A stretch of DNA of 42,393 nucleotides from contig QHVE01000043.1 of NCBI GenBank assembly GCA_003223455.1, forward strand, positions 1 to 42,393, read 5' to 3'. Position numbers and translations under genes: made by a program. This document shows positions 786-18,224 of the stretch, piece by piece. Every line of letters begins with the position of its first letter. Position 1 is the stretch's first letter. The notes below the pieces were generated by a model that did no database searches, was not told where the DNA came from, and saw nothing but the letters and a program-made list of their open reading frames with translations. This DNA is from Gemmatimonadota bacterium (GTDB taxonomy: Bacteria > Gemmatimonadota > Gemmatimonadetes > Gemmatimonadales > Gemmatimonadaceae).

Positions 786-2959
786 TGATGCGTACGCTGT
801 TCGTCGCGGCCGCGATGCTCGCGCTCCTCGGCGGTTCGGCGCGCGCCGACGACGGCTACGACCTGTGGCTGCGGTATCCGCGGGTGAGCGATCCTGCGCT
901 GCTGGCCGAGTATCGCGCCGCGGCGACCCAACTCGTCGTCGGTGGCGACGGCCCCACGCTTCGTGCGGCGCGCGATGAGCTGACGACGGCCCTCACCGGG
1001 CTGCTCGGCTCCGCGCCAGCAGTTCGCACGAGTGTGACGACGGACGGCGCCATCGTGATCGGTACGCCAAGGTCGTCGGCGCTGATCCGCTCGCTGCCGA
1101 TCGCCGCCGAGCTCCGCGGCCTCGGACGCGAAGGATATCTCATCCGGTCCGTGCGGATCGCGGGCCGGCGCGCGATTGTCGTCGCTGCAAATGAAGAGAT
1201 CGGAGTGCTGTATGGCACCTTCGCGCTGCTGCGACGATTCCAGACGCAGGGCTCCCTGCGCGACCTCGCGCTACACGACGCGCCGAAGATCGCCCTGCGC
1301 GTCCTGGATCACTGGGACAATCTCGACGGCAGCGTCGAGCGCGGCTATGCGGGCCGCTCGATCTGGCGCTGGGACAGTCTGCCGGCCGGGATCTCTCCCC
1401 GATATCGCGACTATGCGCGCGCCAACGCGTCGATCGGCATCAACGGCGCGGTACTGACGAACGTCAACGCGAACGCGCGCGTGCTCACGCCGGAGTATCT
1501 GGACAAGGTCGCCGTGGTGGCCAACGTGCTGCGGCCCTACGGCATTCGGGTGTACCTGACGGCGCGATTCAGCGCACCGATCGAGCTGGGCGGGCTCAAG
1601 ACCGCCGACCCGCTCGATCCGGCCGTACGGCAGTGGTGGAAGTCGAAGGTCGACGAGATCTACGCGCGCGTACCCGACTTCGGCGGCTTCGTCGTGAAGG
1701 CGAACTCCGAGGGCCAGCCCGGACCGCAGGACTACAAGCGCACCCACGCCGACGGCGCGAACATGTTCGCCGATGCGCTCACGTCCCACGGCGGCGTGGT
1801 GATGTGGCGTGCCTTCGTCTACAGCAACGAGGTGCCCACCGACCGGGTGAAGCAGGCGTACGACGAGTTCAAGCCGCTCGACGGCTCGTTTCGCGAGAAC
1901 GTGCTGGTGCAGGTGAAGAGCGGCCCGCTGGACTTCCAGCCGCGCGAGCCATTCCATCCCCTCTTCGGCGCGATGCCGAAGACACCGCTGATGATGGAGT
2001 TCCAGATCACCAAGGAGTACCTCGGACAGGACACGCACCTCGTCTACATGGGCAGCTACTGGGAGGAGGTCCTGCGCGCGGATACCTACGCGGCGGGGAA
2101 GGGCTCGACCGTGGCCAAGGTCATCGATGGGACCGTGCATCACTACGCACGGACGGGCATTGCCGGCGTGTCGAACATCGGCAGCGATCGCAACTGGACC
2201 GGCTCGCAATTCAACGAGGCGAACTGGTACGCGTTCGGGCGACTGGCGTGGAATCCGGAGGGCTCGGCGCGCGCCATTGCCGACGAGTGGATCAGGATGA
2301 CGTTCACCAACTCGCCGGCCGAAGTGGCGTCGATCCGTTTGATGCTCCTGCAGTCGCGCGAGGCCGTGGTGAACTACATGACGCCGCTGGGGCTGGCGCA
2401 CATCATGGCGACCGGGCACCACTACGGCCCCGCTCCGTGGGCACGCCTCGCGCGCGCCGACCAATCGCCGACGTACTACCACCGCGCCGACACGCTTGGC
2501 GTGGGGTTCGACCGGACGGCGACCGGAAGCAACGCCGTCGCCCAGTACGCCGTACCCGTCCGCGATCGGTATGCGAACCTGGCCACGGTCCCCGACTCGG
2601 TCCTGCTGTGGTTTCATCACGTTCCATGGACCTACAAGACGCCCTCCGGCCGCACGGTATGGGACGAGCTCGTCTTCCGCTACAACGCGGGGATCGATAC
2701 GGTGCGTGCGATGCGGAAGACGTGGGCAACCGTCAAACCGGCGGTGGACGCCGAGCGATTCGCCGAGGTGGCGGGATTCCTGGACATCCAGGAGCGCGAG
2801 GCACGCTGGTGGCGGGATGCGGCGTTGACGTACTTCCAGCAATTCTCGCGGATGCCGATCCCGGCGACGTACGAACAACCGGCGCATCCACTGGCGTATT
2901 ATCAGCGCATCACTTGTCCCGCCAACCGGAACAAGCCTCGCTGCGACGTCGTTCCCTGA
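785..2959 (+). CDS. aguA: GH67 alpha-glucuronidase, secreted
   Basis: Removes (4-O-methyl-)D-glucuronosyl side groups from the non-reducing end of glucurono-xylooligosaccharides. The 724-residue protein has a short Sec signal ending near SARADD, an N-terminal hexosaminidase-like domain, and then the GH67 barrel. By comparison with the Cellvibrio enzyme, the likely catalytic acid is Glu309 (KANSEG) and the base pair is Asp383 (GPLDFQPREP) and Glu411 (ITKEYLG). The ATG at 785 was chosen because it overlaps the upstream TGA and opens directly onto the signal peptide; a second ATG follows at 788. An open frame continues upstream to about 575, but it reads as arginine-rich antiframe of the dehydratase. 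The length is normal for the family. The product supports the glucuronoxylan theme of this region. Confidence 0.95.
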
Positions 2960-2966
2960 TCAACCG

Positions 2967-2993
2967 CGCATCACCTCTGCGGAGCGTGATGCG
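2967..2993 (+). other. RNA hairpin between aguA and xylA
   Basis: Perfect 8-base arms CGCATCAC/GTGATGCG enclose an inner CTC/GAG pairing with a one-base bulge and a TGCG loop, giving an 11-bp stem just 8 bases after the alpha-glucuronidase stop. No T-tract follows. It may be an mRNA-processing or attenuating stem rather than a classical terminator. The function is inferred. Confidence 0.5.
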
Positions 2994-3028
2994 GACATGC
3001 TCACCTTCTGCGCGCGGATAGCCCCACG

Positions 3029-4210
3029 ATGCCTCGTTCAGCGACACAGGACGCCTACACGCCCCGACCGGAGCACCACTTCACCTTCGGCCTGTGGACC
3101 GTGGGCAATCCCGGACGCGATCCCTTCGGCGAAGCCACGCGGCCTCAGATCGGCGCCGTGGAGATCGTCCACAAGCTCGCCGAGCTCGGCGCCTATGGCG
3201 TGAACCTGCACGACAACGATCTCATTCCGCGCGACGCGTCCCCGGCCGAGCGCGACAAGATCGTGAAGGACTTCAAGGCGGCGCTCCAGCAAACGGGGCT
3301 GAAGGTTCCGATGGCGACGACGAACCTGTTCGGCGATCCGGTGTTCCGCGACGGAGCGTTCACGAGCGTCGACGCGAAGGTTCGCCGCCACGCGCTGCAA
3401 AAGACGATGCGGTCGATGGACCTCGGCAAGGAGCTCGGGGCGTTCACGTACGTGTTCTGGGGGGGTCGCGAAGGGACCGAGACGAATGCGTCGAAGGATC
3501 CGCAGGAGGCGATGAAGTGGTTCCGCGATGCGCTCAACTTCCTCTGCGAGTACTCGATCGCGCAGGGATACGACTACAAGTTCGCGCTCGAGCCGAAGCC
3601 CAACGAGCCGCGCGGCGACATCTTCCTGCCGACGATCGGCCACGCGCTCGCGCTGATCTACACGCTCGACCATCCCGAGATGGTCGGGCTGAACCCCGAA
3701 GTCGCGCACGACACGATGGCCGGCCTCGACTTCTCGCACGGCGTGGCGCAGGCCCTCGAGGCGGGGAAGCTGTTCCACATCGACCTCAACTCCCAGAAGC
3801 CGGGGCGCTACGATCAGGACCACCGCTTCGGCAGCGAGGACCCGAAGGCCGCGTTCTTCCTCGTGAAGCTGCTCGAGGACTCGAAGTGGTCCGGCATGCG
3901 GCACTTCGACAGCCACGCCTACCGCACCGAGGACCAGCAGGGCGTGTGGGACTTCGCCGCCGGAAGCATGCGCACCTACCTGATCCTCAAGGAAAAGGTC
4001 GCGCAGTTCAACGCGGACACGCAGATCCAGGGACTGCTCGCCGATCTGGGCGCGCGCGGTTCCAAGGCGGGCGCGCGGTTCAAGTTCTCGAACGAGCTCG
4101 CGAAGACGATCCAGAACGAGCAGTTCGATCTGCCGGCGATGCGTGACCACGGCTACGCGTACGAGCGGCTCGATCAGCTGACGATGGAGATCCTGTTCGG
4201 AGTGCGCTGA
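3029..4210 (+). CDS. xylA: Xylose isomerase (class I, short type)
   Basis: Interconverts D-xylose and D-xylulose in the cytoplasm, the entry step for xylose. The 393-residue length and the opening [19 protein letters not shown] match the short Streptomyces/Arthrobacter type rather than the ~440-residue E. coli type. Visible active-site elements are the ring-opening His in NLHDND, metal ligands in [13 protein letters not shown] and [12 protein letters not shown], the [14 protein letters not shown] segment, and HFDSHAYR. The ATG at 3029 lies directly before the conserved start; the upstream ribosome site is weak. The next gene starts two bases after this stop, so xylA and xylB form one transcription unit. 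Confidence 0.97.
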
Positions 4211-4211
4211 C

Positions 4212-5714
4212 GTGGCCGAGTCGGTCTTCCTCGGACTCGACGTCGGCACGAGCGGGGTGAAGGCGATCCTCGTCGCGCCGTCGGGCGACGTCGTGGCCTC
4301 GGCGACGTCGCCGCTGACGATGGCCACGCCGCATCCGGGATGGGCCGAGCAGGACCCCGAGGCGTGGTGGCAGGCGGCGCTCACGTCGATCGCGACGGTC
4401 AGGAAGCGCCCCGGTGCACGAATCGCGGCGATCGGGATCTCCGGACAGATGCACTCGTCGGTGTTTCTCGACCGCGCGGGAGAGGTGATCCGTCCGGCGC
4501 TGTTGTGGTGCGACGGACGCACGACGGCGGAGTGCGCCGAGATCACGAGTCGCGTCGGCGGCGAAGAGCGGTTGCGCGACCTCGCCTCGAATCCCGCCCT
4601 CGAGGGGTTCACGCTGCCGAAGGTGCTGTGGCTGCGCCGGCACGAGCCGGAGGCGTTCGCACGCCTCGCGACCGTGCTGCTGCCGAAGGACTACATCCGC
4701 TATCGGCTCACGGGGACACTCGCCACCGAGCCGTCGGACGCGTCGGCCACCCTGATGTACGACACGGCGCGCCTGCGCTGGAGCGAGGAGATCATGCGTG
4801 CCGTCGAGTTGCCGACGACGCTCCTGCCCGACGTCGGACCATCAGCGGGAGTGCTCGGACGCGTCAGCGCCGACGCCGCAGCGCTGACCGAGATCGATGT
4901 CGGCACGCCCGTGGTCGGTGGGGGAGCCGACAATGCCTGCGGCGCCGCGGGCGTCGGCGCGGTCGCGCCTGGCGAAGTCGTGACGAGCTGGGGGACGTCG
5001 GGCACCGTGCTCGCGCCAACGGCGAAGCCGCTGGTCGATCCCCGGCTGCGCGCGCACACCTTCTGTCACGTCGTGCCCGACATGTGGTACGTGATGGGCG
5101 TCGTGCTCACCGCCGGCGGCGCCTTCGCATGGTATCAGGACCAACTCGCGCGCGAGCTGGCAGGGATGAGCGACGCGGCGGCGCGCCTCGACGCGGAGGC
5201 AGCGTCGGTGCCGCGCGGCGCGGAGGGCGTGACCTTTCTCCCCTACCTTCAGGGCGAGCGAACTCCGCATCGCGACGCCGCTGCCCGAGGTGCCGTGCTC
5301 GGGCTCAGCCTGGCGCACACGCGTGCGCATCTCACGCGCGCCGTGCTCGAGGGCATCTGCTTCGCGCTGCGCGACTCGGTGACCATCCTCCAGTCACTCG
5401 GATTGTCGCCGAATCATCTGCTGCTCACAGGCGGCGGCGCGAAGAGCGCGCTACTGCGGCAGCTCCAGAGCGAGATCTTCGGGCTGCCGGTGACGACGGT
5501 GAATCGCGAGGAAGGGCCGGCGTACGGCGCGGCGCTGCTCGCCGCGGTCGGCGCGGGGGCATTCCCCGATCTCGCGACAGCCGTGCGCGCGACGCTTTCG
5601 CGCGCGCCCCTTCAGGTCCCCGACCCCAACGCGCACCTCGACTACGCGCAACCATATGTGCGCTTCCGGCAGTCGTACCTTGCCGCGCGCCCGGATCTCC
5701 TCGCTCATGACTGA
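4212..5714 (+). CDS. xylB: Xylulokinase (FGGY family)
   Basis: Phosphorylates D-xylulose to D-xylulose 5-phosphate with ATP, feeding the pentose phosphate pathway. The 500-residue length is normal. The FGGY N-terminal domain is recognised by LGLDVGTSGVKA, the GISGQMHSSV substrate loop and LLWCDGRT. The C-terminal domain carries TSWGTSGTV, a phosphate loop, and LLTGGGAKS, the adenosine motif. The start is GTG at 4212, two bases after the xylA stop, with the first conserved residues right behind it. The 3' end overlaps the permease gene by 8 bases (ATGACTGA), which implies translational coupling of catabolism and transport. Confidence 0.95.
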   Translation: MAESVFLGLDVGTSGVKAILVAPSGDVVASATSPLTMATPHPGWAEQDPEAWWQAALTSIATVRKRPGARIAAIGISGQMHSSVFLDRAGEVIRPALLWCDGRTTAECAEITSRVGGEERLRDLASNPALEGFTLPKVLWLRRHEPEAFARLATVLLPKDYIRYRLTGTLATEPSDASATLMYDTARLRWSEEIMRAVELPTTLLPDVGPSAGVLGRVSADAAALTEIDVGTPVVGGGADNACGAAGVGAVAPGEVVTSWGTSGTVLAPTAKPLVDPRLRAHTFCHVVPDMWYVMGVVLTAGGAFAWYQDQLARELAGMSDAAARLDAEAASVPRGAEGVTFLPYLQGERTPHRDAAARGAVLGLSLAHTRAHLTRAVLEGICFALRDSVTILQSLGLSPNHLLLTGGGAKSALLRQLQSEIFGLPVTTVNREEGPAYGAALLAAVGAGAFPDLATAVRATLSRAPLQVPDPNAHLDYAQPYVRFRQSYLAARPDLLAHD

Positions 5715-6795
5715 GCTCACCGCCGAACGGCCCTCGTCGCGGACGGCGGACATCGTGCGGCGATTGCTCGCGTCGCAGGAGACCGGGCTCGTGATCGTCG
5801 TGACGCTGTTGACGATCGCGCTGATCGCCCTCGCCGGCTCGCATCTCGACCGACGCACGGGCCTGGAGGTCAACAACTTCTGGAATCCGAACACGCTGGT
5901 GCAGACGCTCACCGACGCCAGCTTCTTCGCGATCATGGCGATCGGCGCGACGATGGTGATCATCAGCGGCGGGATCGATCTCTCGGTCGGCTCGATCTAC
6001 GCGCTGGCCGGCGTGAGCATGGCGCTCGTGCTCCGCGCGATGGGGCCGATGGGAAGTGGAGCGACCGCGTTCGTCGGGATCGTCGTCTGCGTCGGCATCG
6101 GCCTGATGTGCGGACTGATCAACGGCATCCTCGTCGTCGGGCTGCGCGTGCACCCATTCATCATCACCCTCGGCTCGATGTGGGTGCTGCGCGGCTTCGC
6201 CTTCGTGATCTCGAAGGCGGAGAGCATTCTCGTGCCCCCTTCGCTCACCGACGTCGCCAAGGCGCCGCTCGGTCTCGGCGGCGGACTGTACCCGGTGCCG
6301 ATGCTGGTGATGCTCGTGCTTACCGTGCTCGGCGCGATCTATCTCACGCGCACGGTGATGGGGCGGCACATCTTCGCCTTCGGCGGCAACCTCGAGGCGA
6401 GCCGCTTCGCGGGACTGTCGCTCGGACGGATCCAGATCGGCGTGTTCGCCGTCTCGGGGCTCACCGCGGGGATCTCTGCGTTCCTCGGCGCGAGCTTCTA
6501 CGGTTCGGCGTCGTCCGGCGACGCACAGGGATACGAGCTGTACGTGATCGCCTCCGCGGTCGTGGGTGGCGCGAGTCTGATCGGCGGGAAGGGAAGCGCC
6601 GTCGGTGCAACGCTCGGCGCGCTGCTGATCGTGCTCATCCGGCAGTCGATCCGCACGCTGCACTTCGACCAGAATTACGAGTGGATCGTGATCGGCTGCG
6701 CGATCATCATCGCGGTCGTCATCGATCAGTGGAGCACGCGCATGACGGCGCGCCGCTTGACGCAGGCGGCCGAGTCCGCGCGAGCCGCGAAATAA
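5707..6795 (+). CDS. Ribose/xylose-type ABC transporter permease
   Basis: Inner-membrane permease of a carbohydrate uptake transporter of the RbsC/XylH family. The 362-residue protein has about ten hydrophobic segments. It includes the family signature MVIISGGIDLSVGSIYALAG around residues 80-100 and the late GGASLIGGKGS loop. ATG 5707 was chosen over an open extension to 5656 because the preceding codons are the xylB end read in another frame and MTELTAERPSSR gives a normal hydrophilic N-terminus. The neighbouring xylose isomerase and xylulokinase make D-xylose the most likely substrate, but specificity is not visible in the sequence. The gene order permease, binding protein, ATPase is less common than ATPase-permease-binding protein. 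Confidence 0.93.
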   Translation: MTELTAERPSSRTADIVRRLLASQETGLVIVVTLLTIALIALAGSHLDRRTGLEVNNFWNPNTLVQTLTDASFFAIMAIGATMVIISGGIDLSVGSIYALAGVSMALVLRAMGPMGSGATAFVGIVVCVGIGLMCGLINGILVVGLRVHPFIITLGSMWVLRGFAFVISKAESILVPPSLTDVAKAPLGLGGGLYPVPMLVMLVLTVLGAIYLTRTVMGRHIFAFGGNLEASRFAGLSLGRIQIGVFAVSGLTAGISAFLGASFYGSASSGDAQGYELYVIASAVVGGASLIGGKGSAVGATLGALLIVLIRQSIRTLHFDQNYEWIVIGCAIIIAVVIDQWSTRMTARRLTQAAESARAAK

Positions 6796-6816
6796 CCACA
6801 CCAACGGGAGAAGGAC

Positions 6817-7944
6817 ATGAGTGCAAGGCGTGCAAGCTGGAGCGGTGTCGTGCTGTCGGCGCTGTGCGTCGCGGCGCTTGCCTGTAGCGGCGGCGAGAGC
6901 AAGTCGGCCGCGACGGGGGACTCGGCAAGGGCGGGTGGTGCCGCCGGTGCCGGCGGCAAGTCGATCCGGATTGCCATGATCGCGAAGAGCTCCGACAACC
7001 CGGTGTTCCTCGCATCACGCACCGGTGCCGAGGCCGCGGCCAAGGAGCTCTCGGAGAAGAGCGGCACGAAAGTCGAGGTCGAGTGGCTCACGCCGCCGAA
7101 GGAGGATGGCGAGGTGCAGGCGCAGCGCATTCGGCAGGCGGTGAACGAGGGCGTCGACGCCATCCTCATCTCGTGCTCCGACGCGGGCAAGGTAACCGGC
7201 GCGATCAACGATGCCATCGATCGCGGCGTGCAAGTGATGACGTTCGACAGCGACGCGCCGCAGTCGAAGCGCTTCGCGTTCTACGGCGTCGACGACGCAC
7301 GCGCCGGCCAGCAGACGATGGAAGAGCTCGCGAAGCTCCTCAACGGCAAGGGGAACGTCGCGATCCTCGCGGGGAACCAGAATGCGCCGAACCTGCAGAA
7401 GCGCGTTCAGGGCGCGAAGACCGAAGCCGCGAAGTATCCCGGGATCAAGATCGTGGGCGTCTTCAACCACATCGAGACGCCGCAGGATGCCTCGGCCGAG
7501 GTGATCAGGGTGAACAACGCGTATCCCGAGATCACCGGGTGGGCATTCATCGGCGGCTGGCCGCTCTTCGCGACGTCGCTGCTGTCCGAGCTCAACCCGG
7601 CGAAGCAGAAAGTCGCGTCGGTCGATGCCATCCCCGTGGAGCTGCCCTACATCGAGAAGGGGGTCGTCCCCGTGCTCCTCGCGCAGTCGGTCTATCTGTG
7701 GGGTGACGTCGGCGTGCGCACGATCTTCGACAAGATCCACGACAACAAGACACCGGCGAACCCTGTGATGCCGATGGAGCTGGTGCGGGTGTCGAAGGAG
7801 AACCTTGGCGACTGGGCGCGGCAGCTGAAGGCGTGGGGCTTCACCGATGTGGATCCCAAGTACCTCGCGCTCCCCGCGGCGTCCGGTGCCGCTGCCGCCG
7901 CGCCGTCGCGTACACCAGCGAGCGCACCAGCCGGCAAGCAGTGA
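6817..7944 (+). CDS. Sugar ABC transporter substrate-binding lipoprotein (xylose-type)
   Basis: Periplasmic sugar-binding protein of 375 residues, fold type I (RbsB/LacI-like), that delivers sugar to the adjacent permease. A signal peptide ends at a lipobox-like AALAC, with the predicted lipidated Cys at residue 23. A Gly/Ala/Ser-rich tether follows, and the mature domain starts at IRIAMIAKSSDNPVF. The DSDAP and VDDARAG segments are typical of this family's ligand cleft. The C-terminus is an Ala/Pro-rich tail. A strong ribosome site (GGGAGAAGG) precedes ATG 6817. The stop overlaps the GTG of the ATPase gene, so the two are coupled. Xylose is inferred from context; the closest known relatives also include ribose and other pentose binders. 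Confidence 0.9.
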   Translation: MSARRASWSGVVLSALCVAALACSGGESKSAATGDSARAGGAAGAGGKSIRIAMIAKSSDNPVFLASRTGAEAAAKELSEKSGTKVEVEWLTPPKEDGEVQAQRIRQAVNEGVDAILISCSDAGKVTGAINDAIDRGVQVMTFDSDAPQSKRFAFYGVDDARAGQQTMEELAKLLNGKGNVAILAGNQNAPNLQKRVQGAKTEAAKYPGIKIVGVFNHIETPQDASAEVIRVNNAYPEITGWAFIGGWPLFATSLLSELNPAKQKVASVDAIPVELPYIEKGVVPVLLAQSVYLWGDVGVRTIFDKIHDNKTPANPVMPMELVRVSKENLGDWARQLKAWGFTDVDPKYLALPAASGAAAAAPSRTPASAPAGKQ

Positions 7945-9446
7945 ACGTCGCCGCCGTCCGGTTCGAGGGAGTCAGCAAGCGGTTCCCCGGCGCGCAGGCG
8001 CTCAGCGACGTCTCGTTCGAGATCAGTGCGGGCGCCTGTCACGCGCTGTGCGGCGAGAACGGCGCGGGGAAGAGCACGCTCGGCAAGATCATCGCCGGCA
8101 TCCATCAACCGGACGGCGGACGGCTGCTGATCAACGGCAGCGAGGTGCACTTCACGACTCCGCGCGATGCGCTCGCGGCGGGCGTCGGCATGGTGCACCA
8201 GGAGCTCGCGTTCTGCGACAACCTGAGCGTCGCCGAGAACCTGACGCTGTCGGATCTGCCGGCTCGGAGTGGCATCGTCGATCGCGAGGCAATGCGGCAG
8301 CGCGCCGAGTCGATGCTCGCCGAAACTGGCACCGAGCTGGACGTGACGCGCGAGTTCGGCAAGCTCGCCATCGGACAGCGCCAGATGGTGCAGATCGCCG
8401 CCGCCGTCGGCGGGGGCGCGAAGATCATCGTGTTCGACGAGCCGACGAGCAGCCTGAGTCAGGCCGAGGCAGAGCGCCTGTTCGCGCTGATCGAGCGTCT
8501 GAAAGCGCGCGGCGTGACGTGCATCTACGTGTCGCACCGCATGCCGGAGATCTTCCAGCTCTGCGACGCCGTCACGATCCTGCGCGACGGACGCCACGTC
8601 GCCACCCGAGCGACCACCTCGCTCACCGAGTCCGATCTGGTGCAGATGATGATCGGCCGCCCGCTCGCCGAGTACTTCGGCCGCCACAGCGACGCGAGCG
8701 CGGGCGACGAGATGCTCCGCGTCGAGGGACTCACCGTGCCGGGCAAGTTCGAGGACGTTTCGTTCTCGCTTCGTGCGGGTGAGATCGTCGGTCTCGCTGG
8801 CCTGATGGGGGCAGGCCGGTCGGAGGTCGCCTCGGCGCTGTTCGGGCTCGAGCATCCGTCGCGTGGGCGCATCGTGCTGCGCGGCAAGCCAGTCGAAGTG
8901 CGCAGTCCTGCGCACGCGATCGAGCTCGGCATCGGCTACGTGCCCGAGGATCGCAAGCGGCAGGGACTCGTGCTGTCGGCGAGCGGGTTGCACAACACCT
9001 CGCTCCCCATCCTCGGCCGACTCTCGCGATTCCGATGGATCATGCGTGCGCGCGAGCGGAGCGTGGCGCGCGAGTACTTCGACCGGCTGCGGGTGCGCAC
9101 GCCGAGCCTCGACGCGACCGTCGCCGGTCTCTCGGGAGGCAATCAGCAGAAGATTGTCCTCGCGAAGTGGCTGGCGGCGAGCTCGCAGATTCTGATCCTC
9201 GACGAGCCGACACGCGGCGTCGACGTCGGGGCGAAGGCGGAGATTCACGCGCTCGTCGGCGAGCTCGCGGCACGTGGAGCGGCGATCCTCGTGATCTCGA
9301 GCGAGCTGCCGGAGGTGATCAGTCTCTCGGATCGCATCGTCGTGCTCCGCAGCGGGCGCGTGGCGGGCGAGCTGTCGCGGCGCGAGGCAACCGAGGACTC
9401 CGTGCTCCGGCTGATGGCCGGGATCGGGGAGCCGGTGGCCTCATGA
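7941..9446 (+). CDS. Sugar ABC transporter ATP-binding protein, tandem NBD (RbsA/XylG type)
   Basis: Energises the pentose importer encoded just upstream. The 501-residue protein has two fused nucleotide-binding domains. NBD1 has an intact Walker A (GENGAGKST, residues 38-46) and Walker B (IIVFDEPTSSL). NBD2 has the family's usual degenerate P-loop (GLMGAGRSE, no Lys), an intact signature (LSGGNQQK) and Walker B (ILILDEPTRG). The start is GTG 7941, which forms a GTGA overlap with the binding-protein stop; the open frame upstream to 7833 is out-of-frame binding-protein sequence. It serves as the complete reference against which the damaged second ATPase in this window (23495-24946) can be compared. 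Confidence 0.94.
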   Translation: MNVAAVRFEGVSKRFPGAQALSDVSFEISAGACHALCGENGAGKSTLGKIIAGIHQPDGGRLLINGSEVHFTTPRDALAAGVGMVHQELAFCDNLSVAENLTLSDLPARSGIVDREAMRQRAESMLAETGTELDVTREFGKLAIGQRQMVQIAAAVGGGAKIIVFDEPTSSLSQAEAERLFALIERLKARGVTCIYVSHRMPEIFQLCDAVTILRDGRHVATRATTSLTESDLVQMMIGRPLAEYFGRHSDASAGDEMLRVEGLTVPGKFEDVSFSLRAGEIVGLAGLMGAGRSEVASALFGLEHPSRGRIVLRGKPVEVRSPAHAIELGIGYVPEDRKRQGLVLSASGLHNTSLPILGRLSRFRWIMRARERSVAREYFDRLRVRTPSLDATVAGLSGGNQQKIVLAKWLAASSQILILDEPTRGVDVGAKAEIHALVGELAARGAAILVISSELPEVISLSDRIVVLRSGRVAGELSRREATEDSVLRLMAGIGEPVAS

Positions 9447-9453: not shown

Positions 9454-9481
9454 TTGACAGTTGAATGCCGATCCGTAATTT
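9454..9481 (+). promoter_or_regulatory. Candidate sigma-70 promoter for the esterase-xylanase operon
   Basis: TTGACA at 9454-9459 is a perfect -35 hexamer. TAATTT at 9476-9481 is a weak -10 at 16-base spacing. The pair lies just downstream of the ABC ATPase stop and directly upstream of the palindrome, so transcription would start near or within the palindrome. Only the -35 is strong. Confidence 0.45.
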
Positions 9482-9490
9482 GACCGCCAC

Positions 9491-9509
9491 CAAGTCATCC
9501 GATGACTTG
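9491..9509. promoter_or_regulatory. Perfect 19-bp palindromic operator candidate
   Basis: CAAGTCATCCGATGACTTG has two 9-base arms around a central C and sits about ten bases after the candidate -10. This is the place expected for a repressor site. The odd-length, short-spaced dyad suits a dimeric helix-turn-helix regulator. The FadR-type GntR protein at 15399-16118 is the only nearby candidate, so that pairing is inferred. I found no second copy elsewhere in the window by eye. Confidence 0.55.
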
Positions 9510-9606
9510 ATGTGCAGGGCACGCGCTCCGTACGCCCGGGGTGTCCGTGTACTCGGGACGCCGAGGGTGGGACCACGATGGCGAGAGTGGGCGCTCCGGC
9601 ATCGTG

Positions 9607-9645
9607 CGCCGGTCTCCGTTCGTGTCGAGTGAACGGAGGCCGGCG
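9607..9645 (+). other. Strong leader hairpin
   Basis: CGCCGGTCTCCGTTC (9607-9621) pairs with GAACGGAGGCCGGCG (9631-9645) over 15 bp with a single G-U pair and a 9-base loop. It lies between the candidate promoter and the esterase start and lacks a T-tract. It could stabilise or attenuate the transcript, or protect the 3' end of the upstream ABC operon. Confidence 0.5.
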
Positions 9646-9775
9646 GGAGTCGCCCCAACGCGCCGCCCAGCCACTCGTCTTGACGCCCCCTGTCGGTGTT
9701 GCCTGTGACATCACCAATCCGATCCGGCTCACTCGACGCCTGGGCGAAGACGAGCGAATCCCCGAGGGCAGGGGG

Positions 9776-11026
9776 GTGACAGCGGCCAACCGCTTCCGCA
9801 GCGCGCGTCGGCGCGGAGTGTCCGCGGGCCTCGTGATGCTCGCCGCATGTCGTCCGCCGAGTCACGCTGCCCCGAGCGCCGCGGAGCCGGTCTGGGTCGG
9901 GACGTGGGCGACGTCGCAGCAGCTCGTGGAGCCCGCGAACATGCCACCGGTGCCCGGGCTCTCGGGCAGCACGCTGCGCCAGATCGTGCACCTCTCGCTC
10001 GGCGGACGGCGCGTGCGGATTCGCTTCTCGAATGTCTTCGGCGACGGACCGCTGACGATCGCCGGGGCGATCATCGCACCGTCGCTCGGCGAGAGCCGCA
10101 TCGACTCGACGGCGCAGCGCAGAGTCACCTTCGGCGGCAACGCGTTGGTCGTCCTCGCCGCGGGCCGCGACACGCTCTCCGATGTCGTGGCGTTCGACGT
10201 GGCGCCGCTCGCCAACGTCGCGATCACGACGCGTTTCGGCGCCGTGCCTCCGGCCCTCACCGGACACCCGGGGTCGCGCACCACCTCGTACATCCAGTCC
10301 GGCGACGCACTCGCCGCTCCGCTCATGCCGGCGGTGGTATCCACGGCACACTGGTACGTCGTCGCGGGGATCGACGTCCTCGCCGAGCCGCAGAGCGCGG
10401 CCGTCGTCGCACTGGGAAACTCGATCACCGATGGCCGCGGCTCGGGAGCGGACCGGCAGAATCGCTGGCCCGACGAGCTGTCACGCCGGCTGCAGGCCGA
10501 TCCCGAGACGCGTCACGTCGCGGTACTGAATGCCGGCATCGGTGGGAACTGCGTGCTGCGCAACTGCCTCGGACCATCCGCGCTCGCCCGGCTCGAGCGT
10601 GACGTGCTGCGGCCGCCGGGTGTGCGATGGGTCATCGTGCTGGAGGGGGTCAACGACATCGGTCAGGCCAAGAGCGCCGCGCAGGCCGATTCGGTCGCGC
10701 GCGGCCTCATCGACGCCTATCGACAGATCGTGCAGCGATCGCACGCCGGCGGTATCCTCGCCTACGGGGCGACGATTCTCCCCTTCGGCGGCTCGTTCTA
10801 CGACGCGCCGTACCGCGAGGAAGCGCGGGCCGCGGTCAACCGATGGATTCGAGCGAGTGGCACATTCGACGCCGTCCTGGACCTCGACGCGGCCCTTCGC
10901 GACCCGGCACAGCCGACGCATCTGGCCACGATGGCCGACGGCGGCGATCATCTGCACCCGAACGAGGCGGGCTATCGGATGATGGCCGCCGCAATCGATC
11001 TGAGGTTGTTCCGACGCACCCGCTAG
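9776..11026 (+). CDS. SGNH/GDSL-family esterase lipoprotein, probable acetylxylan esterase
   Basis: Probably removes acetyl groups from xylan or its oligosaccharides outside the cytoplasm. GTG 9776 opens a 416-residue protein with an Arg-rich N-terminus, a hydrophobic stretch and a clean lipobox LAAC (Cys25). Residues ~35-210 form a beta-rich N-terminal domain starting VWVGTWATSQQ, seen in this GDSL subgroup. The hydrolase blocks follow: block I GNSITDG with the nucleophile Ser, block II NAGIGGN, block III EGVNDIG, and block V GDHLHPNEAG with Asp and His. An earlier in-frame start exists at 9512 but would place non-protein-like sequence before the signal peptide. It is followed by the sugar symporter and xylanase genes. 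Acetylxylan as substrate is inferred from context. Confidence 0.82.
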   Translation: MTAANRFRSARRRGVSAGLVMLAACRPPSHAAPSAAEPVWVGTWATSQQLVEPANMPPVPGLSGSTLRQIVHLSLGGRRVRIRFSNVFGDGPLTIAGAIIAPSLGESRIDSTAQRRVTFGGNALVVLAAGRDTLSDVVAFDVAPLANVAITTRFGAVPPALTGHPGSRTTSYIQSGDALAAPLMPAVVSTAHWYVVAGIDVLAEPQSAAVVALGNSITDGRGSGADRQNRWPDELSRRLQADPETRHVAVLNAGIGGNCVLRNCLGPSALARLERDVLRPPGVRWVIVLEGVNDIGQAKSAAQADSVARGLIDAYRQIVQRSHAGGILAYGATILPFGGSFYDAPYREEARAAVNRWIRASGTFDAVLDLDAALRDPAQPTHLATMADGGDHLHPNEAGYRMMAAAIDLRLFRRTR

Positions 11027-11083: not shown

Positions 11084-12463
11084 ATGGCCCTCGCACACGA
11101 ACGATTGTCCGTCGGAGAGAAGGTGGGATACGGCATCGGCGATGCCGCCGCCAACTTCATCTTCCAGACGATGATCATCTTCCAGCTCGCCTTCTACACC
11201 GACACGTTCGGGATCACGGCGGCGGCGGCTGGCACCCTGTTCCTCGTCGTCCGCGTGTTCGACGCGGCGTTCGACCCGTTCATGGGGGTGATCGCGGACC
11301 GCACGAACACCCGCTGGGGAAAGTTCCGGCCGTGGATCCTCTGGACGGCGCTGCCGTTCGGGATCATGGGGCTGCTCGCCTTCACCACCCCCGATCTCAC
11401 GCCGGCCGGTAAGCTGGCCTACGCCTACGTGACGTACATCCTCCTGATGATGGTGTACTCGGCGAACAACCTGCCGTACTCCGCGCTGAGCGGCGTGATG
11501 ACGGGCGACGTCGTCGAGCGGACGAGCCTCTCGTCGTATCGGATGGTCGCCGCGATGGCGTCGCAACTCGTGATCCAGGGGCTGGCGCTGCCGATGGTGC
11601 ACCGGTTCGGCGCCGGCAACGACGCGCAGGGTTACCGGATCACGATGGGCATCTTCTCCGCGCTAGCCGTCGTCTTCTTCCTCATCACGTTCGCCACGAC
11701 GCGCGAGCGTGTGCGCCCCGATCCGGCACAGAAGAGCTCCATCCGCCAGGACTTTGCCGACCTGCTGAGCAACGGCCCCTGGAAAGTGATGTTCGCGCTG
11801 ACGATCATCCTCTTCGTCACGCTCGCGCTGCGCGGCGGCGTGATGGTCTACTTCTTCAAGTACTACGTGGGCCGAGAGGACATGTTCAGCCTGTTCAACG
11901 TGATCGGAACCGGCGCGACGATCATCGGCGTCCTCCTCTCGAAACCCGTTGCCGAGCGAGTCGGCAAGCGGCAGCTGTTCATCGTCGGCCTGCTCGGCAC
12001 CGTCGTGTTCACCGGGGCCTTCATCCTGCTGCCCCCGACCAACCTGCCGCTCATCATCACGACCGAGGCGCTCCGTCAGTTCGCGTACGGCTTCACGATT
12101 CCGCTGTTGTGGGCGATGATGGCCGACGTCGCCGACTTCTCGGAGTGGAAGAATCGCCGGCGCGCGACCGCCGTCGTCTTCTCCGCCATCATCTTCGGGC
12201 TCAAGGCGGGGCTGGGGATCGGTGGCGCGATCGGTGGCTACCTGCTCGACGCCTACGGCTACGTGCCGAACGCCGTGCAGTCGGAACACGCGCTGCTCGG
12301 CATTCGTCTGACGGCGAGCGTCTATCCCGCGATCGCGTTCCTGCTGTGCGCCGTGTGCCTGTGGTTCTACCGCATCGACAAGTCGACCGAGCTGGAGATG
12401 TCGACCGAGCTCACGGAGCGGCGCAACGCCTTCCAACCGTCTCCCGTTCCATCCGTGCCATGA
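11084..12463 (+). CDS. GPH-family (MFS) sugar:cation symporter, probable xyloside transporter
   Basis: Inner-membrane symporter of 459 residues from the glycoside-pentoside-hexuronide family (MelB/XylP/YicJ group), with about twelve hydrophobic segments. Conserved features are the start LSVGEKVGYGIGDAAANF, the VRVFDAAFDPFMGVIADRTNTRWGKFRPW loop, which includes the Asp and Arg residues of the first MFS motif, and the repeat-half motif MADVADFSEWKNRRRAT. Xylobiose, other xylo-oligosaccharides or glucuronides are likely substrates, given the GH10 and GH43 genes behind it. An upstream CAGGAA sits in front of ATG 11084. The stop overlaps the ATG of the xylanase gene, so the two are coupled. Confidence 0.92.
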   Translation: MALAHERLSVGEKVGYGIGDAAANFIFQTMIIFQLAFYTDTFGITAAAAGTLFLVVRVFDAAFDPFMGVIADRTNTRWGKFRPWILWTALPFGIMGLLAFTTPDLTPAGKLAYAYVTYILLMMVYSANNLPYSALSGVMTGDVVERTSLSSYRMVAAMASQLVIQGLALPMVHRFGAGNDAQGYRITMGIFSALAVVFFLITFATTRERVRPDPAQKSSIRQDFADLLSNGPWKVMFALTIILFVTLALRGGVMVYFFKYYVGREDMFSLFNVIGTGATIIGVLLSKPVAERVGKRQLFIVGLLGTVVFTGAFILLPPTNLPLIITTEALRQFAYGFTIPLLWAMMADVADFSEWKNRRRATAVVFSAIIFGLKAGLGIGGAIGGYLLDAYGYVPNAVQSEHALLGIRLTASVYPAIAFLLCAVCLWFYRIDKSTELEMSTELTERRNAFQPSPVPSVP

Positions 12464-13620
12464 TGACTCGCCGTCGACCGGTCGCGTTCGCGGCCCTTCT
12501 GCTGGTCGGCTGCCACGCCGGATCGGGTACAGGCGCCGGACCAACGTCGGCATCGTCGAGCGGAGGACTCAAGGACGCCTTCCGCGAAGCGTTCATGATC
12601 GGCACCGCGCTCGCCCCACAACAGTTCGGCGAGCGCGACACGGCGAGTGTCTCGCTCATCACGCGGCAATTCAATGCGACCACGCCGGAGAACGTGCTGA
12701 AGTGGGAGCAGGTGCACCCGCAGCCGGACCGGTACGAGTTCGGTCCGTCGGATGCGTACGTGTCGTTCGGCGAGCGCCACGGGATGTTCGTCGTCGGGCA
12801 CACGCTCGTGTGGCACAGCCAGACGCCGCGCTGGTTGTTCGAGAATGCGCAGGGCCAGCCGCTCTCGCGCGACGAGCTCCTCGCGCGGATGAAGGAGCAC
12901 ATCGCCACCGTCGTCGGACGGTACAAGGGCCGCATCAGGGGCTGGGACGTGGTGAACGAAGCGCTGAACGAGGATGGCACGCTGCGCCAGTCGCCGTGGC
13001 TGCGCATCATCGGCCCGGACTACATCGCCAAGGCGTTCCAGTTCGCGCACGAGGCGGATCCCGCCGCGGAGCTCTACTACAACGACTACAATCTCGACTA
13101 TCCTGCCAAGCGCGACGGTGTGGTGCGCCTCGTGCGCTCGCTGCAGGCAGCCGGGGTGCCGATCCACGCGGTGGGCAGCCAGGAGCACCTAAAGCTGACG
13201 ACGCCGTCGATCGCGCTCGTCGACTCCAGCATTCGCATCATCGCCGCGACCGGCGTGAAGGTGAACGTCACGGAGCTCGACATCGATCTGCTGCCGCCGG
13301 TGACGCGCACCGCCACCGCGGACGTCTCGGTGCGCGCGGGCCCGGCACCGCAGCTCGATCCGTACAGGTCGGGATTGCCCGATTCGGTGCAGCAGGCGCT
13401 CGCCCGCCGGTACGAGGATCTCTTCCGCGTGTACCTCGCGCACAAGGACGTGATCGATCGTGTCACCTTCTGGGGAGTCGCCGATCGCGACTCGTGGCTC
13501 AACGGCTGGCCAGTGCGTGGACGCACCAGCTATCCGCTGCTGTTCGACCGCGAGAACAAGCCCAAGCTCGCGTACCAGCGCGTGATGGCGCTGGCTCGCG
13601 CACACCCACTCGTACCGTAG
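12460..13620 (+). CDS. GH10 endo-1,4-beta-xylanase lipoprotein
   Basis: Cuts internal beta-1,4 bonds in xylan. The 386-residue protein carries a lipoprotein signal (lipobox LVGC, Cys18), a short Gly/Ser linker, then a single GH10 barrel with no carbohydrate-binding module. The acid/base is Glu167 in WDVVNEALNE and the nucleophile is Glu272 in VNVTELDIDLL; the HTLVWHSQTP and YYNDYNL segments are also diagnostic. ATG 12460 overlaps the symporter stop (ATGATGA), with a second ATG at 12463. Lipid anchoring suggests a cell-surface or periplasmic enzyme rather than a freely secreted one. It lies 8 bases before the GH43 gene. Confidence 0.96.
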   Translation: MMTRRRPVAFAALLLVGCHAGSGTGAGPTSASSSGGLKDAFREAFMIGTALAPQQFGERDTASVSLITRQFNATTPENVLKWEQVHPQPDRYEFGPSDAYVSFGERHGMFVVGHTLVWHSQTPRWLFENAQGQPLSRDELLARMKEHIATVVGRYKGRIRGWDVVNEALNEDGTLRQSPWLRIIGPDYIAKAFQFAHEADPAAELYYNDYNLDYPAKRDGVVRLVRSLQAAGVPIHAVGSQEHLKLTTPSIALVDSSIRIIAATGVKVNVTELDIDLLPPVTRTATADVSVRAGPAPQLDPYRSGLPDSVQQALARRYEDLFRVYLAHKDVIDRVTFWGVADRDSWLNGWPVRGRTSYPLLFDRENKPKLAYQRVMALARAHPLVP

Positions 13621-13628
13621 GAAAAGCG

Positions 13629-15365
13629 ATGAGAGCGTTTCGACTTCATGCCGCGCTCGCCGCGCTGGCGGTGACGGTCGCCTGTGCCGGCGCCTCCGCG
13701 CCGCGCGCGGCGACCACCGTCGCCGCGGCCGGCCCACACGCGGGCGATCCCCGGTTCGACTGGTTCGAGTACGTGGGCGAGGACACCATCTATCGGAAGA
13801 TGCCGGCGGGGCCGGGCGAGTATCACAATCCGATCCTCGCCGGCTTCTACCCGGATCCGAGCATGGTCCGCGTCGGTGACGACTTCTACATCGTCGTCTC
13901 GAGCTTCGCGTACTTCCCCGGCGTGCCGATCTTCCACAGCCGCGATCTCGTGTCGTGGACGCAGATCGGAAATGTGCTCGATCGTCCGTCGCAGCTGAAC
14001 CTCGACAGCGCGGGGATCTCACGCGGCGTGTTCGCGCCGGTGATCCGGTACAACAAGGGCACGTTCTACATGATCACGACGGTGGTGGATCGCGGCGGCA
14101 ATTTCTTCGTCACGGCGACGAATCCCGCCGGACCGTGGTCGGAGCCGACGTGGCTCCCCGAGCTCGTCGACGGCATCGACCCGTCGTTCTTCTTCGACGA
14201 CAATGGCAAGGCGTACGTCGTGAACAACGGCCCTCCCGAGGGCAAGCCGCTCTATCAGGGCCACCGGGCGATCTGGATGCAGGAGTTCGACATCGCCGGC
14301 AAGCGCATGGTCGGTCCGCGCAAGCTGATCGTGAATGGTGGAGTGGACCTCTCGAAGAAGCCGATCTGGATCGAGGCCCCGCACATCTTCCGCAAGGACG
14401 GCAAGTACTATCTGATCTGCGCCGAGGGCGGCACGGCGGACCAGCACAGTGAAGTCCTATTCCGCAGCGACAGCGTGTGGGGGCCGTATGTGCCCTTCTC
14501 GGGAAATCCGATCCTCACACAGCGCCATCTCGACAAGAACCGACCGAACGCGATCGGCACTGCGGGCCATGCCGACTTCGTGGAGACGTCCGCGGGTGAA
14601 TGGTGGGCCGTTTTTCTCGCGACGCGCGACTACGTCGACAACGTCTACAACACCGGCCGCGAGACCTTTCTCATGCCGGTCAGGTGGGAGAACGGCTGGC
14701 CCATCATCACCACGGGCGACCAGACGGTGCCCTACGTGGCGAAGCGCCCGACGCTGCCACCGCAGCCTGCGCCGCCGGTGCCCACGAGTGGCAACTTCAC
14801 GATCCGCGACGAGTTCGACGGACCCAGGCTCCCGCCGTACTGGCACGTGATCCGGACGCCACGCGTCCAGACGTACGATCTGACCTCCACTCCTGGCGCA
14901 CTGACGCTGTTCGCGCGCCCCGTCGGCCTCGAACCGACGGGAATTCCATCGTTCGTCGGACGCCGCCAGCAGCACCAACGGTTCTCGGCCACGACCTCCG
15001 TTCGCTACGCTCCGAGCCAGGATGGCGCGAAGGCGGGGATCATCGCGTTTCAAAATGACGAGTTCTACTATTTTCTTTCGGTGGCGCGTGTGGCGGGCAG
15101 GACGATGGTGCAGTTGGAGAAGCGTGCGGACGCCCAGACGGGTTCCGCTGGAACGATCGTCGCCTCGGCGCCGGTGGACGCGGCCCAGCCGATCCGGCTG
15201 AGGATCCAGGGTCGAGCAGACCGTTACGATTTCCTCTACGCCGCAGGCAACGACCCCTGGCGAACGCTCGCGGCGGATCAGGACGGCAGAATTCTCAGCA
15301 CCGCCGTCGCGAAAGGGTTCGTGGGGACGATGCTGGGATTGTACGCGACGACCGCTGCACGGTGA
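13629..15365 (+). CDS. GH43 beta-xylosidase / arabinofuranosidase-type lipoprotein
   Basis: Releases xylose (or arabinose) from xylo-oligosaccharides. The 578-residue protein has a signal with a lipobox-like TVAC (Cys19; Thr at -3 is atypical). It then has a five-bladed GH43 propeller with Asp76 (FYPDPSMVR, base), Asp184 (DGIDPSFFF, pKa modulator) and Glu249 (WIEAPHIF, acid). A C-terminal concanavalin-like domain covers residues ~395-575, the usual partner of beta-xylosidase-type GH43. A small linker rich in Pro (QPAPPVPTSG) joins the two. ATG 13629 follows a GAAAAG ribosome site. Substrate choice between xylosidase and arabinofuranosidase cannot be settled from sequence; the domain pairing and context favour beta-xylosidase. 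Confidence 0.93.
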   Translation: MRAFRLHAALAALAVTVACAGASAPRAATTVAAAGPHAGDPRFDWFEYVGEDTIYRKMPAGPGEYHNPILAGFYPDPSMVRVGDDFYIVVSSFAYFPGVPIFHSRDLVSWTQIGNVLDRPSQLNLDSAGISRGVFAPVIRYNKGTFYMITTVVDRGGNFFVTATNPAGPWSEPTWLPELVDGIDPSFFFDDNGKAYVVNNGPPEGKPLYQGHRAIWMQEFDIAGKRMVGPRKLIVNGGVDLSKKPIWIEAPHIFRKDGKYYLICAEGGTADQHSEVLFRSDSVWGPYVPFSGNPILTQRHLDKNRPNAIGTAGHADFVETSAGEWWAVFLATRDYVDNVYNTGRETFLMPVRWENGWPIITTGDQTVPYVAKRPTLPPQPAPPVPTSGNFTIRDEFDGPRLPPYWHVIRTPRVQTYDLTSTPGALTLFARPVGLEPTGIPSFVGRRQQHQRFSATTSVRYAPSQDGAKAGIIAFQNDEFYYFLSVARVAGRTMVQLEKRADAQTGSAGTIVASAPVDAAQPIRLRIQGRADRYDFLYAAGNDPWRTLAADQDGRILSTAVAKGFVGTMLGLYATTAAR

Positions 15366-15398: not shown

Positions 15399-16118
15399 AT
15401 GAAGCACTCGTTTGAACCGGTCGTGAAGCAGAGCCTGCCCGACAAGCTGGCGCGGCAGATTCGTGGCACGATCCAGAGCGGCAATTACCGCCGCGGCGAT
15501 CGTCTCCCGCCGATTGTCGAGATGGCCAAGCGCTTCGAGGTCGGTCAACCGAGCATTCGCGAGGCGCTCAAGAAGCTCGAGGCGATGGGCGTGGTCCAGA
15601 TCCGTCACGGCTCGGGAGTGTTCGTCACACGCAGCGAGGAAGTGCTGGTGCTGGCGAGTCCGGACTATGCCGGCACCGTGACGAAGAAGCTCCTGCTCGA
15701 TCTGATTCGCGCTCGCATCCCGATCGAGATCCAGTCGGTCGCCGACTGCGTCAAGAACGCGACGCCGGACCAGGTGCAGGAGCTGAAGCGCATTCTCGCC
15801 AGCGCCGGGAAGCATCTCGACGACGACGAGACATTGAACACCGTGAACATGGACTTTCACGGCAAGATCGCCGAAGGGTCCGGCAACTCGGTCACGGCGC
15901 AGCTGCTGGCCGTGTTGCACGAGCTCTTCACGGAAGAGCAGCGACTCATTCTCGACATCTTCGGTTCGCGCGAGGACGATCACAAGGACCACGTGCAGAT
16001 CCTCAAGGCGATCGAGCGGCGCGACGAATCGCTCGCGGTCGAGCGCATGCGGTCGCATCTCGAGAGCGTCCATGCCGCGATCCAGCGCTGGGAGCCGGAG
16101 GACCACCCGGTCCAGTGA
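15399..16118 (+). CDS. GntR-family transcriptional regulator, FadR/FCD type
   Basis: DNA-binding repressor or activator of 239 residues. The winged helix (residues ~10-75) includes RRGDRLPPIVEMAKRFEVG and the classic QPSIREALKKLEAMGVVQIRHGSG recognition region. An all-helical FCD ligand domain follows from about residue 90, with candidate metal-binding His residues in NMDFHGKIAEG, DDHKDHVQIL and HLESVHAAI. FCD regulators usually sense sugar acids or related metabolites, which fits a position between a glucuronoxylan locus and a deoxyhexonate locus. It may bind the palindrome at 9491-9509; this is inference. The gap to the previous gene (33 bases) shows no clear promoter, so it may be cotranscribed with the xylanase operon. 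Confidence 0.92.
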   Translation: MKHSFEPVVKQSLPDKLARQIRGTIQSGNYRRGDRLPPIVEMAKRFEVGQPSIREALKKLEAMGVVQIRHGSGVFVTRSEEVLVLASPDYAGTVTKKLLLDLIRARIPIEIQSVADCVKNATPDQVQELKRILASAGKHLDDDETLNTVNMDFHGKIAEGSGNSVTAQLLAVLHELFTEEQRLILDIFGSREDDHKDHVQILKAIERRDESLAVERMRSHLESVHAAIQRWEPEDHPVQ

Positions 16119-16156
16119 GCGCCGCTCGCGCCAACGACGGGAGCGCGCGCCGTCCG

Positions 16157-16179
16157 GACTGAGCCCACCTGGGCCAGTC
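16157..16179 (+). other. Hairpin downstream of the GntR gene
   Basis: GACTG plus GCCC pairs with GGGC plus CAGTC across a one-base bulge and ACCT loop, in the 139-base gap before the second permease. No T-tract follows. It is a possible weak terminator or processing stem; nothing else recognisable lies in this gap. Confidence 0.3.
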
Positions 16180-16257
16180 GCGTGGCGCGGCGCCTGGCAG
16201 TATTATCTCCCCGCCGGCGCGGCGCCCGTCCGCCACCGGCGTGCGGCGCCACGCGAG

Positions 16258-17358: not shown

Positions 17359-17360
17359 CG

Positions 17361-18224
17361 ATGACGGCGATTCGCGCCATCGACGCACACGTGCACTTCT
17401 GGGATCCCATGGTGCTGCGGTATCCGTGGCTCGCGGGAGAGCCCGCACTCGCCAAACCATTTCGTCCGACCGACTTCGCGCCGCTCACCGCCGGCGAGGT
17501 CGACGCCGTCGTCTTCGTCGAGGCCAATCCCGCGCCCGAGCAGGCCGAGGACGAGGTGGCGTGGGTGGAGGAGCTCGCCGACTCGGAGCCGCGCATCGCG
17601 GGGATCGTCGCGTTCGTCGACCTGCTCGATGAGCCGCGTCGCACCGCGGCGCTCGGGCACCTGGGTCGGACGCCGCGCGTCGTCGGCGTGCGTCACAACA
17701 TCCAGCACCAGCCGACTGGCTTCGCGCTGCAACCCGCATTCGTGCGCGGCGTGCAGGCGGTCGGCGAGTCGGGACGGCCGTTCGACCTGTGCATCACCGC
17801 GGACCAGCTCGACGAAGCGATCGAGCTGGTGCGTCGCTGTCCCGATGTGACGTTCGTGCTCGACCACTGCGGCAAGCCCGCGATCCGTGACGACGCGTTC
17901 GACGGTTGGGCACGCGACCTGGAGCGTCTTGCGTCACACGATTTCGTCTCGTGCAAGATCTCGGGCCTTCTGACGGAGGCGCGCGAGGATCAGCGCACCG
18001 CCGAATCGCTCGCACCGTGGATCGCGCAGGCGCGCGCATGCTTCGGCGCGTCCCGTCTCATCTACGGCTCCGATTGGCCGGTGAGCGTGCTGGGTGGCGG
18101 GGCAGGGCGCTGGCGGTCCATCGTCGATTCCGTGACGGCCTCGTGGTCAGAGGCGGAGCGGCGGGCGCTCTTCGCCGACAACGCCGCTCGCGTCTACGGT
18201 CTTTCGGTTCCCGTTCATGACTGA
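17361..18224 (+). CDS. Amidohydrolase-family sugar lactonase, probable L-fuconolactonase
   Basis: Probably hydrolyses L-fucono-1,5-lactone (or a similar sugar lactone) to the aldonate. The 287-residue protein is an amidohydrolase-2 TIM barrel with IDAHVHFWDP (His-x-His), VGVRHNIQHQP, the metal/catalytic His in VLDHCGKP, and the Asp in IYGSDWPV. Length and motifs agree with fuconolactonases of the COG3618 group. ATG 17361 is two bases after the permease stop. The 3' end overlaps the following SDR gene by 8 bases, using the same ATGACTGA junction seen between xylB and its permease. Its position directly before SDR, FAH hydrolase and fuconate dehydratase genes supports the L-fucose-type assignment. 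Confidence 0.87.
   Translation: MTAIRAIDAHVHFWDPMVLRYPWLAGEPALAKPFRPTDFAPLTAGEVDAVVFVEANPAPEQAEDEVAWVEELADSEPRIAGIVAFVDLLDEPRRTAALGHLGRTPRVVGVRHNIQHQPTGFALQPAFVRGVQAVGESGRPFDLCITADQLDEAIELVRRCPDVTFVLDHCGKPAIRDDAFDGWARDLERLASHDFVSCKISGLLTEAREDQRTAESLAPWIAQARACFGASRLIYGSDWPVSVLGGGAGRWRSIVDSVTASWSEAERRALFADNAARVYGLSVPVHD

Follow-up and report, generated by a model that had tools for sequence, protein, structure and literature searches.

A predicted 19-bp operator and regulon of an FCD/FadR-type GntR regulator for glucuronoxylan use in a Gemmatimonadota lineage

In E. coli, the hexuronate regulators UxuR and ExuR are described as jointly controlling the oxidoreductase UxuB, the dehydratase UxuA and uronide transporters, and both as repressing their own synthesis (PMC9369180). 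For operators of the FadR subfamily of GntR proteins, Suvorova et al. (2015, PMC4494728) give the consensus TKGT-N2-3-ACMA. According to the same source, this consensus is usual but not universal, and the exceptions include BioR and NanR, the latter binding direct repeats of TGGTATAW. Here, we analysed a stretch of 42,393 nucleotides (the window) from the assembly GCA_003223455.1, which comprises 4.96 Mb in 127 contigs and is 96% complete. The window contains a palindromic 19-bp dyad in front of a run of genes that closes with a GntR regulator gene. We consider it very likely, judging from sequence, that this dyad is the operator of the repressor encoded at 15399-16118, which would hold three operators, regulate its own gene and be released by an acid inducer.

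The promoter boxes and the perfect dyad described in the initial annotation were borne out. On the forward strand, a -35 box (TTGACA, 9454-9459) is followed after a 16-nt spacer by a -10 box (TAATTT, 9476-9481), both read from the sequence. The predicted operator CAAGTCATCCGATGACTTG, a perfect 9+1+9 dyad at 9491-9509 assigned to neither strand, is proposed from its sequence and its recurrence in genomes; it consists of CAAGTCATC (9491-9499), a central C (9500) and GATGACTTG (9501-9509). The dyad had been said to follow TAATTT at once, near the expected start of transcription. The first part does not hold, as 9 nt separate the two; if transcription starts 7 nt past the -10 box, the dyad would lie at roughly +3 to +21. 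Because the ORF of an ABC ATPase ends at 9446 and the esterase frame opens at or after 9512, the dyad is intergenic. No second match with up to three mismatches was found elsewhere in the 42,393-nt window.

The run behind the dyad lies on the forward strand and starts with an ORF for an SGNH/GDSL esterase (9512-11026; Pfam PF13472, E 1.6e-28), whose true start is probably further in, at about 9776 or 9838. It continues with a GPH-type sugar/uronide symporter (11084-12463; Pfam MFS_2; NCBIfam TIGR00792 at 416 bits, cut-off 231), a GH10 xylanase ORF (12109-13620; Pfam PF00331 over residues 154-493, E 5e-100) with its real start probably at about 12450, and a GH43 xylosidase ORF (12702-15365; Pfam PF04616, E 2e-90, plus GH43_C2). 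The GH43 domain begins at residue 374, and the real start of this ORF appears from the sequence to lie further in. The last gene of the run encodes the FCD/FadR-type GntR regulator proposed as the repressor (15399-16118; Pfam GntR and FCD). Past the regulator, at 16072-19860, Pfam identifies a sugar ABC permease and an amidohydrolase, which are followed by genes whose translations read as an SDR and a FAH-type protein. These genes look like a separate sugar-acid pathway, and the window scan with up to three mismatches found no operator copy before them.

The initial annotation had considered a perfect 19-bp dyad unlikely by chance, and this was not borne out. In first-order Markov sequences with the composition of the window (67% G+C), the expected number of perfect dyads (9-bp arms, 1-nt centre) per window is 0.58, and 31 of the 60 simulations contained at least one. 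Allowing centres of 0-3 nt raises the expectation to 2.57, and the window holds three such dyads. At this chance level, the dyad alone is weak evidence. The signal far above chance is recurrence and placement: the site occurs three times between genes of the own genome, is associated with the regulator and keeps a near-fixed distance to the -35 box. A chance dyad without function, as the expectation of 0.58 might suggest, is extremely improbable, since this particular sequence is found repeatedly alongside an orthologous regulator, in a near-fixed promoter geometry.

The initial annotation had also proposed a search of the complete genome for the palindrome, and this search revealed further copies before oxidoreductase and SusC/SusD genes. 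With up to three mismatches, the 19-mer occurred at three places in the assembly (reversed control: 0); the two outside the window are C46:836-854 and C98:14394-14412. The 17-mer AAGTNATCNGATNACTT with up to two mismatches matched four places in the 127 contigs (reversed control: 0), of which three are intergenic and precede carbohydrate genes. The fourth and weakest match (C16:18893, two mismatches) is within an apparent gene for translation factor IF-2 and was dropped as an operator.

On contig C46, 10 nt separate the site from the presumed start codon of an SDR gene. The counterpart of this gene in the same-genus genome G007 matches NCBIfam PRK08277 (D-mannonate oxidoreductase) with 338.6 bits, above the cut-off of 281. 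The C46 copy scores 122 bits over residues 6-145 and misses the 281-bit cut-off because a frame change near position 388 breaks the gene into two frames; this change in the oxidoreductase gene (75-858 of L005, on C46) may be an assembly error or real decay. In G007, a single contig carries a ROK gene, the site, the oxidoreductase, an MR/enolase-type dehydratase, GH67, xylA and xylB. C46 stops just past the oxidoreductase, and the window opens inside a dehydratase gene, followed by GH67 and xylose genes. From the gene order in G007 and the contig ends, C46 and the window therefore very probably adjoin; no sequence overlap was found between the end of C46 and the start of the window.

By synteny, the first 9.4 kb of the window very probably belongs to the operon behind the C46 site. 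All its genes are on the forward strand. The second gene of this operon is the dehydratase, of which the window holds the C-terminal part (3-782; residues 176-435 of the G007 protein, tblastn 90% identity). It is followed by a GH67 alpha-glucuronidase ORF (575-2959; Pfam GH67 domains), a xylose isomerase-like protein (3029-4210; Pfam PF01261, 83% identity to the G007 copy), and a kinase, an ABC permease, a binding protein and the ABC ATPase (4212-9446; the ATPase by Pfam, the rest from translation). Both genomes carry another dyad, GACGCCAGATTTGGCGTC, immediately upstream of the site that precedes the oxidoreductase operon (the sites at L005:837 and L101:6791); this dyad may terminate transcription of the ROK gene or serve the ROK protein as an operator.

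About 100 nt separate the C98 site, which has two mismatches, from a downstream SusC gene and its SusD partner, identified by Pfam (SusD) and by 41% identity to a G007 protein (SusC). In G007, whose regulator is 86% identical to that of the window, a second site precedes genes for SusC, SusD and a GPH symporter; the C98 SusC/SusD pair shares only 37-41% identity with the G007 pair. In both the own genome and G007, copies were thus present upstream of related genes, which are uronate/xylan or SusC/SusD genes. On sequence, the regulon appears to extend beyond what the initial annotation saw, to the GH67/xylose operon (by synteny) and the unlinked SusC/SusD pair.

Across 179 genomes of the family, the exact site AAGTCATNNNATGACTT was present in 11 (reversed control: 0 of 179) and an orthologue of the regulator (E ≤ 1e-40) in 22. 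All 11 site-bearing genomes were among the 22 with an orthologue (hypergeometric 6.4e-12, a value that overstates independence because the family genomes share ancestry). A copy starts 32-66 nt before the regulator match in nine of these 11 (G005, G023, G024, G058, G129, G140, G147, G176 and G208); the own genome and G007 are the two that have no site directly before the regulator gene. Half of the orthologue-bearing genomes (11 of 22) do not contain the exact site. In nine of them, the regulator has His at the position of window Gln50 in the recognition helix, and the other two (G215 and G177) have a copy with one or two mismatches before the regulator gene.

A set of 99 relatives was searched with the pattern at up to one mismatch, which occurred in 11 genomes (reversed control: two), and with the regulator (E ≤ 1e-20), which occurred in 17, including a partial match in G043 and a distant one in G067. 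Nine of the 11 site genomes had a regulator match (Fisher 6.5e-7, all site matches counted). Gene calls in the relatives come from a simple GC3-based script, and their starts are approximate. Several matches were not taken as operators: those in G084 (L021) and G036 (L029) lie inside ORFs, that in G001 (L023/L109) lies inside the start of an ORF, that in G011 (L027) is at the start of a contig, with no long ORF called there, and a 1-mismatch match in G043 lies in an IF-2-like gene.

These data bear on the question of which protein would bind the dyad. The gene immediately upstream of the site, in C46 as in G007, is a ROK gene (the family being shown for the G007 copy), and the own genome encodes two other FCD proteins, at C54:20531 and C37:13670. 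An operator of the ROK-family repressor or of either of these FCD proteins is nonetheless quite improbable: the orthologue of the 15399 regulator occurs in every one of the 11 site-bearing family genomes and has the site right before it in nine, and no site with up to two mismatches was found in the 19.9-kb regions around the two other FCD genes. The proposal that the dyad serves the regulator at 15399 is supported on sequence by its recurrence before related genes and this co-occurrence. The feedback loop suggested in the initial annotation likewise gains support from the copies directly before the regulator gene; in the window, the operator precedes the transcription unit of which the regulator is the last gene, with the operon read from gene order.

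The geometry of site and promoter was compared over 17 sites, comprising the 14 exact family sites, C46, C98 and the second G007 site. In 14 of the 17, TTGAC[A/G] begins 34-43 nt before the 17-bp core, compared with 0.067 expected from shuffled upstream sequence; one of the 17 (L103) falls inside a called ORF. The exceptions are the oxidoreductase site on C46, its G007 counterpart and G129 (L111). In G007, TTGACA-N16-TAGAAT precedes its site with the same spacing as in the window. At most sites, the operator thus lies just past the -10 box, a classical position for a repressor.

Some GntR proteins activate transcription, and the direction of control is unreadable from sequence. Activation or dual control by the regulator bound at the dyad is nevertheless quite improbable, as 14 of the 17 sites lie downstream of the -10 box, where a bound protein normally blocks RNA polymerase, and as the site directly precedes regulator genes, as in autorepression. 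The preference for repression over activation is suggested solely by the position of the site.

Folding points to a probable untranslated leader at 9510-9775 on the forward strand, with a 16-bp RNA hairpin at about 9607-9646. G007 has SusC/SusD genes after the operator where the window has this leader, which may be a remnant left by the loss of SusC/SusD. As RNA, the dyad would pair into a short stem where the leader begins, and none of 100 shuffles folds as well as the 305-nt leader (z -2.64), so a 5' RNA hairpin acting in stability or attenuation has to be weighed. We regard this function as very improbable. In the copies before the C98 genes and before the oxidoreductase of G007, the stem loses pairs (14 of the 18 non-central positions are symmetric) while a DNA half-site is kept; moreover, an Rfam scan of the whole window at gathering scores gave no matches, and in relatives the sequence accompanies one regulator gene.

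The regulator comprises 239 residues and is by its domains an FCD/FadR-type GntR protein, with an N-terminal GntR winged helix (PF00392, 62.9 bits over 27) and a C-terminal FCD domain (PF07729, 81.3 bits over 24.3). The predicted structure (mean pLDDT 81.9, pTM 0.60) has helices from 96 to 230, as in an all-helical FCD domain, and its domain orientation is uncertain. The best 50 Foldseek matches are GntR/FadR/NanR/VanR-type regulators (TMq 0.40-0.62). Asn150, His154, His198 and His220, which would be the metal ligands of the FCD domain, are invariant among 16 aligned orthologues. The best NCBIfam models, all under their cut-offs, are NanR (PRK03837, 125.7 of 260 bits), LldR and UxuR; the hexuronate equivalog models reach 68.9 bits compared with a cut-off of 442 (UxuR) and 56.4 compared with 396 (ExuR). 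The best solved relative by sequence is NanR (6on4, E 1e-16).

From the positions, conservation and co-occurrence of the sites, which are read directly from the sequences, we infer binding, repression and an inducer as follows. A regulator dimer would sit downstream of the -10 box, at about +3 to +21, and block initiation or promoter escape. At the window site it would repress the genes for the esterase, the GPH symporter, GH10, GH43 and gntR itself; at the second operator, on C46, the D-mannonate oxidoreductase operon that would continue as window 1-9446; and at the third, the C98 SusC/SusD pair. Without substrate, all three operators would be occupied, and outer-membrane import, xylan hydrolysis and uronate/xylose catabolism would remain low. 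Traces of substrate would provide an acid whose binding to the FCD domain clears the operators. Candidate inducers from glucuronoxylan breakdown are glucuronate, fructuronate, mannonate or an aldouronate; a uronate-type inducer, suggested by the controlled genes and by analogy with UxuR/ExuR, is plausible but held with somewhat less than even confidence. With gntR at the end of the run that follows the window site, the regulator would limit its own synthesis; its level would climb with the operon and restore repression once the substrate is gone.

The regulators with His at the Gln50 position were studied in nine regions (G049, G092, G084, G091, G028, G022, G068, G001 and G037). A GH10 gene lies directly before the regulator in six of these regions and one gene further off in two (G028 and G022); none was found in the G037 region (L108). 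Six SusC promoters from His-type regions (L091, L092, L093, L095, L096 and L097) have TTGACA, 16 nt and TAGAAT or TAGTAT. The next element is GGTGATCTTATGACTT (twice), GGTGACCTTATGACTT, TGTCATCTTATCAATT, TATCATCTTATCAATT or GGTGATCTTATCACC, centred on CTT. We infer that these elements may be diverged operators, from six hand-chosen promoters without a chance control.

We compared the recognition helices with the best upstream sites, excluding the G043 and G067 rows. The 13 His rows had best sites with 4-7 mismatches, whereas the 13 rows with Ser, Ala, Gly or Pro, the group with the site before the regulator's own gene, had 0-2 mismatches; two of the latter (L066 and G208) look like one or nearly one genome. 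This comparison is confounded by ancestry and gene order because the His rows are mostly genes within xylanase operons, for which an operator immediately upstream is not to be expected. Moreover, a link between residue and base is not strict, because the own sites have G in one half-site. Within the family, residue 50 (Gln in the window, mostly Ser/Ala where the site precedes the regulator's own gene, and His in the mostly xylanase-linked group) may shift with the operator, and CAAGTCATCNGATGACTTG may represent a non-consensus class of FCD/FadR operators shared by distantly related regulators of Gemmatimonadota, Rhizobiales and other groups; we hold this reading tentatively, as somewhat more probably wrong than right. 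If true, it would offer a natural series for reading the DNA-recognition code of the FCD/FadR family.

In the regions with the site before the regulator's own gene (L102-L107 and L110), only the regulator was found among eight window proteins tried; the esterase, symporter, GH10, GH43, GH67 and xylose proteins were absent at E ≤ 1e-20. Since no other window proteins were found there, the regulator would govern other genes in this group. The operator therefore appears tied to the lineage of the regulator; the evidence for a role in xylan use comes from the own genome, from G007 and from the His-type regions. Proteins of about 940-1010 residues follow the regulator in this autoregulated group (L105 7960-10794, L106 2472-5312 and L107 5975-9007). 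The large L105 protein had no Pfam or NCBIfam match, and L107 carries an apparent SusC/SusD pair and a DUF4838 protein further on. On gene content, the group appears to serve a different substrate.

Beyond the family, exact matches to CAAGTCATCNGATGACTTG, with 18 fixed bases, occurred in 40 stretches of GTDB genomes, compared with about four expected by chance if 257 Gb of sequence has an even composition. Homologues of the regulator were present in 29 of the 40, and in 28 the match starts within 100 bp of the site. These 28 comprise 25 Mesorhizobium, Rhizobium and other Rhizobiales-type stretches, one Streptomyces, one Ramlibacter MAG and one Gemmatimonadaceae MAG (L066), in which regulator and operator are paired as in the window. 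Eleven aligned rhizobial regulators share 22-27% identity with the window protein and have SRGT instead of GQPS in the recognition helix. With proteins this dissimilar, an operator common to the window and the rhizobia would be either an old trait or convergence. In many rhizobia (L059, L085, L086, L088 and others), a longer dyad, CTATTCAT-19-mer-ATGAATAG, encloses the 19-mer and precedes a FadR-type gene and then a gene that reads as a transporter. The remaining 11 stretches, eight of them from Bacteroidota, contain no homologue of the regulator within the stretch. Seven Bacteroidota stretches (L055, L057, L058, L062, L078, L082 and L083) have a second AGTCATCSGATGA within about 90 nt and no homologue in the stretch. 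The 19-mer in L072 falls within a long ORF, perhaps by chance.

No paper on a GntR regulator of xylan genes in Gemmatimonadota was found in CC-licensed PMC text (titles and abstract starts), and the spelled forms of the 13-bp core occurred in no papers of that text. For operator forms containing N, there were none among the matches listed, which were short strings from works unrelated by title. The prediction provides a regulator, an operator and a regulon for glucuronoxylan use in a Gemmatimonadota lineage, with a 19-bp site that is directly testable. FadR-type proteins form a very large family of bacterial regulators, and this operator could help to extend the recognition rules of the family because it falls outside the usual consensus and is letter-identical in rhizobia.

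The regulator shares with E. coli UxuR and ExuR that it is a FadR-type GntR protein. It differs from them in its predicted operator and in a regulon that would be joined to GH10, GH43 and GH67 enzymes and to SusC/SusD. The sialic acid regulator NanR of E. coli is the closest both among named family models and among solved sequences; in contrast to its direct repeats, the operator predicted here is a single palindrome, and the model score remains below 260. As in other operators of the FadR subfamily, a palindrome would accommodate a dimeric GntR protein, but TCAT-CNG-ATGA departs from the FadR consensus and has no GT/AC pair at a spacing of 2-3 nt. Rhizobial FadR-type genes have the identical 19-mer just upstream, there often within the longer dyad. 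The regulator as proposed works like UxuR, yet by curated cut-offs it is neither UxuR nor NanR, and its predicted regulon and operator would be new ones of a known kind.
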